From Deltaproteobacteria bacterium (GTDB taxonomy: Bacteria; Myxococcota_A; Polyangia; Nannocystales; Nannocystaceae), in assembly GCA_003696955.1 (NCBI GenBank), contig RFGU01000194.1, positions 1 through 64,000 of the forward strand: a stretch of 64,000 nucleotides of DNA. The letters run 5' to 3'. Under the pieces are notes generated by a model that worked only from the letters and a program-made list of their open reading frames with translations, was not told the origin of the DNA and made no database searches. The translations under genes and the position numbers were made by a program. This document shows, piece by piece, positions 6,400-17,705 of the stretch; the stretch's first letter is position 1, and each line of letters opens with the position of its first letter.

Positions 6400-7836
6400 A
6401 TGACATCCCACGTCTCCCACGATCGATTCACGATCCCCCATCCTTCGCCCCGGCAGGGCTTCGCGGTCGCATCCGCCCTCGCGTCCGCCCTCGCGTTCTC
6501 GGCCTGCACCACCGAGAACCCGAATCGTTTGCCGGAGACCACCGGCACCTCCGCAGGCACCGGCGAGACCACCGGGGGGAGCACGTCCGAAGGCGGCGAC
6601 ACGGCGGGCACGACCGAAGGCGCCGGCACCACCGAAGGCAGCGGCACGACGGGCGCGCCAGGCCCCGTGTGTGGCAACGGCATCGTCGAGGAGGGCGAAG
6701 CCTGCGACGACGGCAACGACGTGGACGGAGATGGCTGCGAGAGCGACTGCACCGAGACGCCGTCGACGTGCGGCAACGGGGTCTTCGAACCGGACGAGAC
6801 CTGCGGGATCTCCCTGAACCTCGAGGTGCCCGCCCCCGTCACGTCGATCGCCGCCGCGGATCTGGAAGGTGACGGCGACCTCGACCTCGCGCTCGCGATC
6901 CCCGGCATCTCTCGAACCGTCGTGGTGGAACTCGAATCGGCGGCGGAAGTCGCCCGCCAGGAGGTCCTGAGCGGCACGCCGCCGGAACGGGTGCTCTTCG
7001 ACGACTTCACGGCGGACTTCGCGACCGATCTGGTGGTCACGGGGGACGACGGGATCTTCCTGGTCGAAGGGGACGGGGCAGGCGACTTCGGCGTCGCCAG
7101 CAAGATCGGCGCCCCCGCCCGCCACCTCGCCGCCACCGACGTCTCCCCCGACGGCCGCCGAGACATCCTGTCCGTTTCCGGCACGTCGGGACAGCTCATC
7201 ATCTGGCAGATCCATCACTACGTAAGCCAAGGTGGCGGCACCTTCGATCTCCAGCCGGCATTCGATGGTAACAACATCCTGAACTATCCGCCGCTGCCCG
7301 TGCTGTCGGCCGACCTCGACGGCGACGGGCTGGCCGATCTCGTCTACCAGCGTCCCTATGCCGACGAGTTGGTCGTCGCCGTGGCGACGGCGCCCGCCGC
7401 CTTCGACATGCCCAACGGCGGCATGTCCCTGCCCGATACGGCGCAGGATGCGGTGCTGCACGACGCCAACGACGACGGCAACCCCGACCTCGTCGTGGCG
7501 CTCGAGGGCACTGCGGGACTCTACCTCCTTCGCGGGACGGGCGCGGCCACCTTCGGCTTGCCGAATACCCTCGCCGTCGACGCACCGGTCGAGCGCCTGG
7601 CCGCGGCGGACGCCGACGGGGACGGCACGGAGGATCTCGTCGTCGGGTACGTCGGCGGCGGAGTCCAGGTGCTTCGCCGCAGCGGCCCGCTGGCCTACGA
7701 AGTCCTCGTGGACGAGCCGACCGCGGACACCGTGGCCGACCTGAAGGTCGCCGACCTCGACGGCGACGGCGCAGCCGATCCCATCTTCGCCGTCAAGGGG
7801 GCGGACGAGCTGACCATCCTGCTGAGCAATCGTTGA
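6400..7836 (+). CDS. Surface lipoprotein with DUF4215 module and FG-GAP/VCBS beta-propeller
   Basis: This encodes 478 residues. The ATG at 6400 is fixed by GGAGGT at 6385-6390, nine bases upstream. A signal peptide ends in F-S-A-C, so Cys36 is the predicted lipidation site. Then comes a Thr/Gly/Ser-rich linker of about 50 residues, a DUF4215 Cys module at about 89-130 (C-G-N-G...E-A-C-D-D-G-N), and from about 150 seven repeats of the D-x-D-G-D-G-x-x-D-L type (such as [11 protein letters not shown]), as in calcium-binding seven-bladed integrin-like propellers. Family knowledge suggests display on the outer surface and protein or glycan binding. It lies 41 bp upstream of a paralogue in the same orientation, suggesting tandem duplication. 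Confidence 0.85.
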
Positions 7837-7877: not shown

Positions 7878-9302
7878 ATGCAACGTACCATCGCAATGTA
7901 TACTTTGAGTCTGGTGTGTGTCGTCGGAGCGTGTTCCGAGGGCATGGACGGCGAGGCCGGGGGGATGAACCCCACCAACGGCATGCAGACCGCCGGAAGC
8001 ACCGGGGACACCACGGGGGAGACGGAGGGGGCGACCGCGGGCGGTACCGGCACCGAGGGCACCGCGGGGGGCTCGGGAACGAGCGGGGGTGTCTGCGGCG
8101 ACGGCATGCTCGATCCCGGTGAGGCCTGCGACGACGGCAACCTCGAGGACGGCGACGGCTGCCAGGCGGATTGCACCCTTCCTCCGCCGGGTTGTGGCGA
8201 CGGCACGGTCGATCCCGACGAAATCTGCCACGCCATCGAGCCCCTTCGTGTCGTGGACTTCACGCCGACCGGCATCGAGGCGGCGGACCTCGACGCGGAC
8301 GGCCGCGTCGACCTCGTCGTATCCGACCTCGAGGGCCACGCCGTCCATCGGTGGGCCCTCGACGCCGATGGTACGGCCATCGAGTCCGAGAAGTCCCATC
8401 CCGCGGGGATGTCTCCCCTGCAGCTTCGCCTTCTCGATGCCGACGACGTGGAGGGGCTCGACCTCTTCGTGCTGCGCGAGGCCACCGACGCGTGGGGGCT
8501 TTCGGCGCTCCAGGGGCTTCCCGGCGGGCTCTTCGCGGCCCAGACGGAGGTTGCGGCCGACGCGGTGCTCGCCTTCGATGCCGGGCACTACGACCTCGAC
8601 GGGGCGCCCGACCTGATCGTGAGTCTCTCCCAGTTCTTCACCGATCCCGTGCTCCTCGTGGTGACGAACCTCGACCTCGGCGACGTGAACCTCGCCTCCC
8701 AGATGGCCGGGGGACTGAACGTCTACGACGAGATCCCCTACGCGTGTCTCGCGGACCTCGACGGCGACGGCCGAGAGGACGTGGCCTTCGTCACCACGGA
8801 CGAGGCGACGGAGGTCTCGTCGTTCTACGTGGCGCGATCGAACCCGGCATACCAGGACCAGGACATCCTGGGCTTCGATCCTCCCGTCAAGGTGGGATCC
8901 TTCCCCGAGGCCGCGGGGGCGCACTGCGCCGATCTCGACGGCAACGGTCTCGAGGACTTCGTGGTGGCCCATGGTGACGGATCCCTCACCGCGGTGTTCA
9001 TGGGGGCCGGTCTCACGGTGGACCGATTCGCCTACACCCAACTCGGAGCTGCGGCCGTCGCCCTGGCCACGGGCGACGTCGACGCGGACGGAAGGCCGGA
9101 ACTCGTCGCCGGGGACGCCGACGGCACGGTGCACTTCTTCGACGTGGACGGGCTCGGCGATCCCGTCGAGGTCTTGGCACTCGACGTGGGCGAGGCCCCG
9201 GCACAGATCGCCCTCGCCGATGCAGGTGAGGACGGCATCGACGACGTGTACGTCGCCCTTCCGGCGACGCGCACCATCGTCGCGTTGCGTGCGCGCCCGT
9301 GA
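7878..9302 (+). CDS. Paralogous surface lipoprotein with DUF4215 module and FG-GAP/VCBS propeller
   Basis: This encodes 474 residues. The ATG at 7878 has AGGAG at 7864-7868; the frame opens earlier but that part lacks a signal peptide. The lipobox V-V-G-A-C gives Cys19. Order of parts is the same as in the gene before it: Gly/Thr linker, DUF4215 module at about 72-118 ([16 protein letters not shown]), then D-x-D-x-D-G repeats (such as [10 protein letters not shown] and [10 protein letters not shown]) to the C-terminus. Family knowledge suggests a Ca-binding propeller adhesin or ligand-binding protein. The two copies have diverged strongly outside the motifs, so the duplication is not recent. 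Confidence 0.85.
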
Positions 9303-14856: not shown

Positions 14857-15399
14857 GTGCTTCGTGCACGCGCGACGGCAAACGACCCCACGAGGCGACG
14901 CGTCTGCCGATTGCGCGCGCCACGGATCGCTCTGGCCGTGCAACTCCACCTCGCGGCCGCAGGCGTCCTCACGGGCCCTGCAGGGTGCGAGATCGTGGAC
15001 CCCGGCCCCGAGGTCGGGGTGGCCGGCCGGTGCGTCGTGGACAGCGCGTACTTCGTCGAGCGGGTCGTACCCGAGTACCTCGAGAAGTACGACTGTCGGA
15101 ACGCCGGGGACGGGGGATGCCACGACGTGGGCAACGGATCGAGCATCTATCGTCTCCACGACGTAAGCGACGTACTCGCGCCCTCGCCGCTCGATCCCGA
15201 ATCGGCCTGGCCCGAGCCCTGGCAACGCAACCTCGAGGCCACGGTCGCCCAGATCTCCGACTGCGACGATGCTTCCTTGTCGCCCCTCTACTCGGAGCCT
15301 GCCGGTGGAGACACGCGAACCCACGGAGGCGGCGACCTGTTCCCGCCCAACGGCCCGGAACTCGAACTTCTCCAAGGATGGCTGGACGCGGCGCCATGA
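14857..15399 (+). CDS. Putative secreted or lipid-anchored Cys-containing protein, unknown
   Basis: This encodes 180 residues. GTG 14857 is the first start after the -10 element. An Arg-rich n-region is followed by a hydrophobic segment (residues 24-40) and P-A-G-C, so Cys44 could be lipidated, though Pro at -3 is unusual. Two further motifs stand out: G-R-C-V-V-D with Y-F-V-E-R-V-V-P-E-Y-L, and G-D-G-G-C-H-D-V-G-N-G, which recalls a cytochrome-c C-x-x-C-H site reduced to a single Cys-His. No haem site is complete. The stop overlaps the next start as ATGA. Function is unknown; the context says envelope. Confidence 0.65.
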   Translation: MLRARATANDPTRRRVCRLRAPRIALAVQLHLAAAGVLTGPAGCEIVDPGPEVGVAGRCVVDSAYFVERVVPEYLEKYDCRNAGDGGCHDVGNGSSIYRLHDVSDVLAPSPLDPESAWPEPWQRNLEATVAQISDCDDASLSPLYSEPAGGDTRTHGGGDLFPPNGPELELLQGWLDAAP

Positions 15400-16226
15400 G
15401 TTCGGTGCGGCCGACGACCCGATTCGCGACGGCCGTGGCCCTGTGCTGCACCTTGGCCGTGCCCGGCCATGCCCTCGCCGCTGGGAAGCGGCGAGGCGCG
15501 AAGGCGGCACGCGCCCAGACGGACGTCCGGGCCCAGGCACGCGTGATCGTCGAGCGTGCGCCGGTCTATTCGGGGCCCGGGTTCGGCTACCGCGTCATCG
15601 GGACCGTGGAGCGGGACGAGGTGGTGGCCCTGGTGGAACGCGGCCGGCGCGGCGGATGGACCCGGGTCCGGCTGGAAAGCGGCATCGTCGGCTGGATCCT
15701 CACCGAACACGTCCACGTCTTCCTCTACACGGACGACCGGGAGCCGTCGCGCCTGCGCAGGTTCGGCCGCAAGCTCCGCGAGACGCTCCTCGGTCCACCG
15801 AACCTATCGATCCACCGATTCACGGGTGCACTTTCGGCCGGCGCCCTCGGCCGGGAGGGGCTCTTCCTGGTGCGCCCAGGGGTGCTCGTGGCGCCCCACG
15901 TGGGTCTCGAGGCCTTCGTGGGGCCGTCGTCCGGGCGCGAAGCATCCCGCGGGATCTTCGGCCTTTCGACCCAGGTGTTCGTCACCCCCCATCTGCCGGC
16001 GACGATCTTCGTTTCGGTGGGCGCCGGTGCCGTCTACACCAAGGGCAAGGTGGATACCCTCGAGGAGGCGACCTGGTCCGGCCTGGTCAGCCCCGGCGGG
16101 GGCTTTTGGATCGTGTTCAAGTACAACATCGGGATTCGATTCGATGTCCGCAACCACATCTTGTTCCGTGCCGACACGGCACGCTCCATGCAGGAGTACT
16201 CGGGTGCCCTGGCCTTCTCGTTCTGA
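15396..16226 (+). CDS. SH3b-domain protein with outer-membrane beta-barrel-like C-terminus
   Basis: This encodes 276 residues. The signal peptide has a basic n-region and cleavage after H-A-L-A (about residue 28). Residues 45-105 form a bacterial SH3 domain (V-Y-S-G-P-G-F-G-Y-R-V-I-G-T-V then G-W-I-L-T-E-H), a fold that binds peptidoglycan or peptides. From about 150 to the end there are alternating amphipathic strands with many Gly and aromatic residues, ending A-L-A-F-S-F; a C-terminal Phe is the usual outer-membrane barrel signal. So it probably ties the cell wall to the outer membrane. ATG overlaps the upstream stop by 4 bp; DUF4266 starts 13 bp downstream. Confidence 0.75.
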   Translation: MSSVRPTTRFATAVALCCTLAVPGHALAAGKRRGAKAARAQTDVRAQARVIVERAPVYSGPGFGYRVIGTVERDEVVALVERGRRGGWTRVRLESGIVGWILTEHVHVFLYTDDREPSRLRRFGRKLRETLLGPPNLSIHRFTGALSAGALGREGLFLVRPGVLVAPHVGLEAFVGPSSGREASRGIFGLSTQVFVTPHLPATIFVSVGAGAVYTKGKVDTLEEATWSGLVSPGGGFWIVFKYNIGIRFDVRNHILFRADTARSMQEYSGALAFSF

Positions 16227-16239
16227 TCGGACCAACGGC

Positions 16240-16467
16240 GTGACGACGGACCGCAAGGTGCGTCGAGCGCTGCTCGCGGCCTGCCTCGTGGTCGTCTCCG
16301 GCTGCGCGCGCGCCGTGTTGCCGAGCGAGAAGGCCTTCTTGGCCGATCCCATCATGCAGTTCGACGAGGACGACCTCGAGACGGCTGCCGACGAACACGT
16401 GGCGTCCAACCGCGAAGGCGCCTTCGGGGGCCAAGGCGCGGGAGGAGGAGGCTGCGGGTGCAACTAG
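16240..16467 (+). CDS. DUF4266 small lipoprotein
   Basis: This encodes only 75 residues. GTG 16240 begins a short signal peptide ending V-V-V-S-G-C, giving Cys22 as lipid anchor. The mature part matches DUF4266: P-S-E-K-A-F-L-A-D-P-I-M-Q-F near the start, N-R-E-G-A-F-G-G-Q-G in the middle and the hallmark G-G-G-G-C-G-C-N end. It overlaps the next gene by 10 bp. As far as I recall, DUF4266 genes usually sit next to DUF3570, a thioredoxin-like protein and an ApbE flavin transferase; only DUF3570 is present here. Its role is unknown. Confidence 0.88.
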   Translation: MTTDRKVRRALLAACLVVVSGCARAVLPSEKAFLADPIMQFDEDDLETAADEHVASNREGAFGGQGAGGGGCGCN

Positions 16468-17705
16468 GCCCGGCTCGTGCGCGGCCTTGGCGGGCGCCGT
16501 GGCTTCTTGCCGGGCTTGTGGCCGTATGCGCCCCGCGCCCCGCCGACGGCTCCGGCGACAATCGCGTGCGGGCCGGCGTGACCTACTTCCACGAGCCCGC
16601 CCGCAACACGCCCCTGTCCGTGGTCCATCCCCAGGTAAGCTACAGCCAGGACTACACCCGACACTTCGGCATGTCCCTCGGCTACGACGCCGACATCGTG
16701 ACGGGAGCTACGCCCCAGATCTTCGGCGTCGACGTCACCTCCTCGGCGACCAAGTTCCAGGACGTACGTCACAACGGCACCGTGGGCCTGCGCTTCATGT
16801 CCGACCTCGCCACCTTCCGCATCGGCGGCGGCTTCGCCGGCGAGAACGACTATCGGTCGGGAACGATCCAACTCGGCGCCACGGCGGACCTGTTTCAGCG
16901 CAACACCCAGGTTTCGGTGGACTACGTCCACAACATCGATCGGGTGTGCGACGCCGCCAATTCGGCCACCCAGGAACTCCTCGAGCTACGGGCCCTCGAC
17001 AGTTCGGACCTCTGCTTCCGGGACTCGGCCGAGACCACCACCCGCAAGCTCTCCATCGACACCGTGAACCTGTCGATCACGCAGGTGTTGACCCCGTGGC
17101 TCCTCGGTCAGGCGGGGATCGTCGGCCAGCACCTACGCGGGTTCCAGTCCAATCCCTACCGGCAGGTACTCCTCGGACGCCGCGCCGTGCAGGAACACCT
17201 GCCCGACATCCGCAACCGCATGAGCGTATTCGCCCGGCTCAAGTTCGCGTTGCGGCCGGTTCGTGGCAGCATCGAACTGTTCGGCCGTTTCTATGCGGAC
17301 TCGTGGGCCATCGAGGGCGTGACGGTGCAGGCCGCGTGGGACCAGTACCTCGCCCGGCCCCTGATCCTTCGTCTGCGCGGGCGCCTGCACGTCCAGGACT
17401 CGGCCCTCTTCTACCGGGACGGCTCCGAATACGCCTCGTCGGGCGCGGCCGGGAGCTACTGGACGGGCGACCGGGAGCTTTCGGCCCTGATGAACACGAC
17501 CCTCGGCGCCAAGCTCACCTACCTGGCCCGGGTGCCGGCGAACTCCCGGATCCGGAGGATCGAGTCGTTTCGGGTGTCCGCCAAGACGGACCTGCTCTTC
17601 TATCGCTCGCGCACCGACAATCCGGCGTTCTCGCCGAACGCCGAACGCACACGCGGGCTGCTCGACGCCATCGTGATCCAAGCCCAGGCGGGATTCGACT
17701 TCTGA
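16458..17705 (+). CDS. DUF3570 family outer-membrane protein
   Basis: This encodes 415 residues. GTG 16458 lies inside the DUF4266 gene and has GGAGGAGGAG at 16441-16450, seven bases before it, inside the codons for that gene's terminal glycines. Signal peptide residues 1-31. The mature protein is a run of amphipathic strands: V-R-A-G-V-T-Y-F, V-S-Y-S-Q-D-Y, G-M-S-L-G-Y-D, V-G-L-R-F-M-S-D-L, ending I-Q-A-Q-A-G-F-D-F with the barrel-type terminal Phe. Length and pairing with DUF4266 identify DUF3570. It is most likely a beta-barrel that works with the lipoprotein and the SH3-barrel protein upstream. Confidence 0.85.
   Translation: MQLGPARARPWRAPWLLAGLVAVCAPRPADGSGDNRVRAGVTYFHEPARNTPLSVVHPQVSYSQDYTRHFGMSLGYDADIVTGATPQIFGVDVTSSATKFQDVRHNGTVGLRFMSDLATFRIGGGFAGENDYRSGTIQLGATADLFQRNTQVSVDYVHNIDRVCDAANSATQELLELRALDSSDLCFRDSAETTTRKLSIDTVNLSITQVLTPWLLGQAGIVGQHLRGFQSNPYRQVLLGRRAVQEHLPDIRNRMSVFARLKFALRPVRGSIELFGRFYADSWAIEGVTVQAAWDQYLARPLILRLRGRLHVQDSALFYRDGSEYASSGAAGSYWTGDRELSALMNTTLGAKLTYLARVPANSRIRRIESFRVSAKTDLLFYRSRTDNPAFSPNAERTRGLLDAIVIQAQAGFDF

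Follow-up and report, generated by a model that had tools for sequence, protein, structure and literature searches.

Layout and products of the four-gene cassette

The window, by which we mean the whole 64,000-nt stretch of DNA analyzed, contains four closely packed genes on one strand, all for exported proteins. They encode a cysteine-containing lipoprotein (the Cys protein), a protein that combines a bacterial SH3 domain with a barrel-like C-terminus (the SH3b-barrel protein), a small DUF4266 lipoprotein, and a DUF3570 protein (Table 1). The ORF coordinates agree exactly with the gene order and spacing described in an initial annotation of this DNA: the Cys and SH3b-barrel genes overlap by 4 bp, a 13-bp gap precedes the DUF4266 gene, and the DUF4266 and DUF3570 genes overlap by 10 bp. 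The single shared promoter that had also been proposed was not confirmed, as no match to a sigma-70-like promoter was found for the cassette.

Table 1. Genes, domains, and conserved residues of the cassette, in window coordinates
Feature	Position	Strand	Description
Cys lipoprotein gene	14857-15399	+	Mature protein begins at the Cys codon at 14986
Invariant residues of the Cys lipoprotein	Cys 15094-15096; Cys-His 15118-15123; distal His 15322-15324; Trp 15379-15381	+	
SH3b-barrel protein gene	15396-16226	+	Signal peptide, bacterial SH3 domain, barrel-like C-terminus
Domains of the SH3b-barrel protein	SH3 15558-15713; C-terminal region ~15798-16223	+	C-terminal region resembles a small beta-barrel and ends in Phe
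DUF4266 small lipoprotein gene	16240-16467	+	PF14086, E=3e-19
DUF4266 C-terminal GGGCGCN	Cys codons 16453-16455 and 16459-16461	+	CGCN tail kept across 50 relatives
DUF3570 gene	16458-17705	+	PF12094, E=2e-33; predicted 16-strand outer-membrane barrel and predicted ApbE substrate
DUF3570 flavinylation site 1, DIVTGAT	16692-16712	+	Full match to D-x-x-[ST]-G-A-[ST]
DUF3570 site 2, DVTSSAT	16731-16751	+	Gly replaced; degenerate in nearly all SH3-type DUF3570s

Compared to the nearest relative, which belongs to the same genus, dN/dS is 0.08 for the Cys gene, 0.17 for the SH3 gene, 0.02 for DUF4266, and 0.11 for DUF3570. All four genes evolve under purifying selection, and these ratios, together with the conserved synteny described below, rule out chance ORFs or a fortuitous cluster.

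Pfam profile searches confirmed the SH3_3, DUF4266, and DUF3570 identities that had been assigned to the last three proteins. The SH3_3 domain is found in the window's SH3b-barrel protein (E=4.6e-8) and in 10/10 relatives. The C-terminus of this protein gives weak matches to barrel profiles, TIGR04565 in 7/10 relatives (with the window copy below the curated cut-off) and OMP_b-brl in 2/10, and its final Phe is invariant, which supports the barrel-like C-terminus suggested earlier. Our guess, from the domain assignment, is that the SH3b domain may bind the cell wall. DUF4266, with its C-terminal C-x-C, is encoded together with DUF3570, as the ApbE-DUF4266-DUF3570 system requires.

The Cys protein is a lipoprotein with the conserved start C-x-T-V-[DE]-x-G. 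It has no Pfam or NCBIfam family and no sequence relative in the PDB. Across 43 aligned Cys proteins, a Cys, a Cys-His pair, a distal His (His113), and a Trp are invariant. What had been read as a lone C-H-D motif is really C-X7-CH with a distant invariant His; the spacing between the two cysteines is CX7CH in the window and ranges from n=4 to 13 in relatives, and the CXXCH heme motif has no match. Conserved candidates for axial ligands are distal His113 and the His that follows the second Cys. The AlphaFold model (pLDDT 86) consists mainly of three helices in a cytochrome-like helix-loop-helix layout; a Foldseek search with this model returned no PDB match and no cytochrome fold. Two other profiles gave weak matches, PSCyt1 in 1/43 members (E=0.11) and CueP in one relative (E=0.024). 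Since cytochrome-assembly genes are present in 12/12 cassette genomes tested, heme delivery is possible. Given the lack of a PDB relative by Foldseek and the non-canonical spacing, we describe the Cys protein as cytochrome-like in sequence rather than as a c-type cytochrome.

The only match to PSCyt1, a planctomycete cytochrome profile, in the window's own genome (contig C167:10894-11067, locus L290) carries CX6CHG and not CXXCH, so a family-level cytochrome match of this genome likewise has its two cysteines far apart. A profile comparison between this protein and the Cys protein was not significant.

Conservation and distribution of the cassette

With a profile of the SH3b-barrel protein, 115/318 genomes of the class were positive (56/152 genera, 13 families), nearly every one of them with a single copy. 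About a third of the sampled genomes of one myxobacterial class thus contain the cassette, with its gene order preserved. At all 50 of the 50 loci opened, the order is Cys lipoprotein, SH3b-barrel, DUF4266, DUF3570 on one strand, with a relative of the Cys protein in every cassette; one of these loci lacks DUF3570 only because the contig ends there.

An independent search with the SH3-type DUF3570 scanned 84,980 named species genomes, and 80 loci were kept. All 80 come from Myxococcota or from deltaproteobacterial or myxobacterial MAGs. Seventy-two are complete cassettes, and five are cut by contig ends; in the other three, which lack an SH3b gene, the Cys gene and DUF3570 are accompanied by a DUF4266 gene in convergent orientation. 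The nearest named relative is a MAG labelled Polyangiaceae. In a phylum-wide sample, 41/41 matches fall within the window's own class, and no cassette was found outside this class in the sampled phylum.

The conserved synteny (50/50 and 72/80 loci) strongly supports the partnership of the SH3b-barrel and Cys genes with DUF4266 and DUF3570 that the initial annotation had proposed: relatives have both genes adjoining the DUF4266/DUF3570 pair. In a tree of 80 DUF3570s, built by a quick method with SH-aLRT support and no bootstrap, the 21 SH3-type entries and the 3 loci without SH3b form one group with 100% SH-aLRT. From this single SH3-type clade, the conserved synteny, and the class-restricted distribution, we conclude that the cassette is one old unit that has been vertically kept.

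There is no fifth constant partner beside the cassette, only lineage-specific neighbors such as a sigma-54 activator. In 11 loci (L190 and 10 others), as in the window, the cassette adjoins a divergent gene for tRNA nucleotidyltransferase, which points to an old fixed location. In nine Polyangiaceae-type loci (L241:7794-8453 and 8 others), the opposite strand close to the cassette encodes a cbb3-type cytochrome c lipoprotein. In locus L045, an intact cassette is followed downstream by two fragments (6722-6958 and 8469-8591) that resemble the C-terminal half of DUF3570 and are perhaps a decayed duplicate.

The predicted DUF3570 barrel and its probable flavinylation by ApbE

An AlphaFold model of DUF3570 built with 57 sequences has 16 long strands (pLDDT 93, pTM 0.88), and Foldseek matched it to AlgE and porins (best E=6e-9). 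As modeled, DUF3570 is an outer-membrane beta-barrel, with a closed barrel, a strand number within the range of 8-26, and a C-terminal aromatic residue. Both chain ends and the short turns share one side of the model; both motif copies are in the hairpin of strands 3 and 4, on the long-loop side, with site 1 at the end of strand 3. From the strand order and the usual topology of such barrels, we infer that the flavin site would be located on the outside or in the lumen.

In Chlorobium luteolum, ApbE has been shown experimentally to flavinylate DUF3570 at two [S/T]GA[S/T] sites (Meheust et al. 2021, PMC8238504). The usual clusters encode ApbE, a thioredoxin-like protein, DUF4266 with a C-x-C tail, and sometimes DsbD (PMC8238504). 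The canonical ApbE/thioredoxin/DUF4266/DUF3570 order is also present in other classes of the phylum. The statement in the initial annotation that DUF4266 and DUF3570 usually accompany ApbE and thioredoxin is right.

Neither apbE nor a thioredoxin-like gene lies within 5 kb of the cassette at any of the 80 loci, and inspection of the recurrent neighbors turned up neither DsbD nor an inner-membrane electron donor close to it. The initial annotation had read ApbE as replaced by new partners. We found instead that ApbE is unlinked and not replaced, with the flavinylation motif intact. ApbE is encoded elsewhere in 108/115 cassette genomes compared to 148/203 other genomes of the class (Fisher p=2e-6, with no correction for kinship of the genomes), which rules out its loss from the cassette lineage. 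In the cassette genomes opened, each ApbE gene stands alone, the surroundings vary, and many of the products carry lipoprotein-type signals. The only ApbE of the window genome, encoded on contig C95, also has such a signal.

The [ST]GA[ST] motif is intact in 79/79 and 48/48 readable copies of cassette DUF3570s in two counts, and the second site has lost its Gly in nearly all cassette copies. Neither FMN_bind nor DUF2271 was found in 28/41 cassette genomes. In the window genome, no FMN_bind or genuine DUF2271 target was found; DUF2271 is ruled out as an ApbE target there because its sole match is FlgD. This leaves the one ApbE without another recognized target family, and the two DUF3570s of this genome are its only recognized candidate targets. 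By homology with the characterized system, flavinylation of the cassette DUF3570 by ApbE in vivo is likely.

The second of these DUF3570s is encoded on contig C268 (L036:8835-10351) in a DUF4266-DUF3570 pair without SH3b, Cys, or ApbE genes or an adjacent thioredoxin, and its motif, DAITSAS, has lost the Gly. Similar pairs are found repeatedly in the family and form one clade.

The ApbE motif has been defined as D-x-x-[S/T]-G-A-[S/T], and in another system about half of the activity survives the replacement of Gly by Ala (PMC12052999). At loci L044, L111, and L127, ApbE adjoins DUF3570s with Gly-less motifs (TSAS, TSSS, TCAS), and the DUF2271 proteins of the same lineage have TSAT, TAAT, or TSAS. 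These relaxed motifs in related DUF2271/DUF3570 clusters, some of them ApbE-adjacent, suggest that ApbE in Myxococcota may tolerate Ser or Ala where the motif has Gly. If so, the second DUF3570 site may also carry FMN.

Possible function of the cassette

We propose that the cassette is a previously undescribed variant of the ApbE/DUF4266/DUF3570 system, serving as an outer-membrane flavin electron-transfer module, and we put the chance that this is correct at about even. The initial annotation had offered a variant or a different envelope machine. The first part stands: with ApbE unlinked but present and the flavinylation motif intact, the evidence argues for a variant of the flavin system and against a flavin-free machine.

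In the mechanism we envisage, the unlinked, exported ApbE would attach FMN to DUF3570 at DIVTGAT. DUF3570 is predicted to fold into a 16-strand outer-membrane barrel, and its flavin would face the lumen or lie on the extracellular-loop side. The C(n)CH lipoprotein, a probable heme or metal electron carrier, would be a cytochrome-like lipoprotein in thioredoxin's place. Together with the C-x-C lipoprotein DUF4266, it would pass electrons through or along the barrel, presumably toward the flavin. The SH3b-barrel protein would form a second, small outer-membrane barrel, and its periplasmic SH3b domain may anchor the resulting complex to peptidoglycan or to a partner.

Several points count against this mechanism. 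ApbE modifies its substrates in the periplasm, and a surface-side flavin would therefore need to be attached before the barrel folds. The variable 4-13 spacing departs from CXXCH, Foldseek returned no cytochrome fold for the Cys protein, PSCyt1 matches only 1/43 members (E=0.11), and no DsbD or inner-membrane donor was seen nearby.

Compared to the published system (PMC8238504), the cassette shares a C-x-C-tailed DUF4266 immediately before DUF3570 and the ApbE motif in DUF3570. It differs in having no linked ApbE, thioredoxin, or DsbD, in the SH3b-barrel protein and C(n)CH lipoprotein upstream, and in the degenerate second flavin site. A literature search on SH3/DUF3570 or myxobacterial flavinylation found nothing relevant, and the only open paper found that names DUF3570 or DUF4266 (PMC8238504) is silent on a barrel or SH3b partners.

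The cassette could go further and constitute an outer-membrane electron conduit complete in itself: a covalent barrel flavin would replace multiheme cytochromes, a free-spacing cytochrome-like lipoprotein would feed it, and the dedicated SH3b barrel would lock the conduit to the wall. We hold this extension to be doubtful. If true, it would represent a new, non-multiheme form of surface electron transfer in about a third of the sampled Polyangia-like myxobacteria. Porin-cytochrome conduits of the MtrCAB type combine an outer-membrane barrel, the 26-strand MtrB, with redox lipoproteins and a multiheme cytochrome. The cassette resembles them in pairing a barrel with redox lipoproteins that are proposed to carry electrons across the outer membrane, whereas its predicted barrel has 16 and not 26 strands, a multiheme cytochrome is lacking, and the flavin is expected on the barrel itself. 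OmpA is a wall-tethered outer-membrane barrel with a C-terminal OmpA-like domain; the SH3b-barrel protein similarly appears to join a small barrel to a soluble domain that could bind peptidoglycan, but here the soluble domain is an N-terminal SH3b.

Three other explanations were weighed. The Cys protein might carry no cofactor; its Cys pair would instead form a disulfide, and the protein would serve the DUF4266 C-x-C as a thioredoxin-like or disulfide partner. The free 4-13 spacing is easier to accommodate in a disulfide than in heme c, and thioredoxin occupies this very place in the canonical system (PMC8238504). We nevertheless find this unlikely, as a plain disulfide needs neither the invariant His after the second Cys nor the distal His, and the modeled helix-loop-helix arrangement resembles that of cytochromes.

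The conserved C-x-C and the C...CH with its His are also plausible metal ligands, and the cassette might capture and reduce metal: DUF4266 and the C...CH/His lipoprotein would bind Cu, Fe, or Zn at the surface, the barrel would pass the metal or a chelate, and the flavin would reduce the metal. This reading draws on the weak CueP match in one relative (E=0.024) and on 25 published DUF3570 clusters with a VIT1 iron transporter (PMC8238504), but no metal transporter or TonB-dependent receptor was seen among the recurrent neighbors of the cassette, and we rate it as distinctly unlikely.

Quite improbable is a non-redox machine in which two barrels, a lipoprotein acting as a plug, and an SH3b domain that binds the wall would serve as an outer-membrane tether, channel, or stress sensor, with the flavin motif as a relic: although an SH3b domain with a small barrel resembles wall-tethered outer-membrane proteins and other ApbE-less DUF3570s have lost the motif Gly, the cassette clade keeps the motif in every readable copy, the C-x-C and C...CH are invariant, and exported-type ApbE genes are retained.

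For the flavin electron-transfer module that we favor, the cassette provides a small testable system: its four genes are strictly conserved as a unit, they include one predicted ApbE substrate, and the genome often lacks another recognized substrate family. It could address the role of a flavin on an outer-membrane barrel and whether a lipoprotein is able to hold heme when the Cys-Cys-His spacing varies freely.

Relatives of the Cys protein also occur in other DUF3570 clusters. By profile comparison (probability 97.7, E=2e-12), the Cys protein is homologous to CX4CHG lipoproteins encoded in the DUF2271/DUF3570 clusters of Nannocystaceae-type relatives. These lipoproteins likewise adjoin DUF3570/DUF4266 but differ in their fixed spacing and in their partners, DUF2271 and a TlpA-like thioredoxin. 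In Nannocystis-like relatives (L040-L051), the cluster comprises DUF2271, DUF3570, the TlpA-like thioredoxin, DUF4266, and the CX4CHG lipoprotein, and several of these clusters also include an apparent membrane-embedded spermidine-synthase-like gene.
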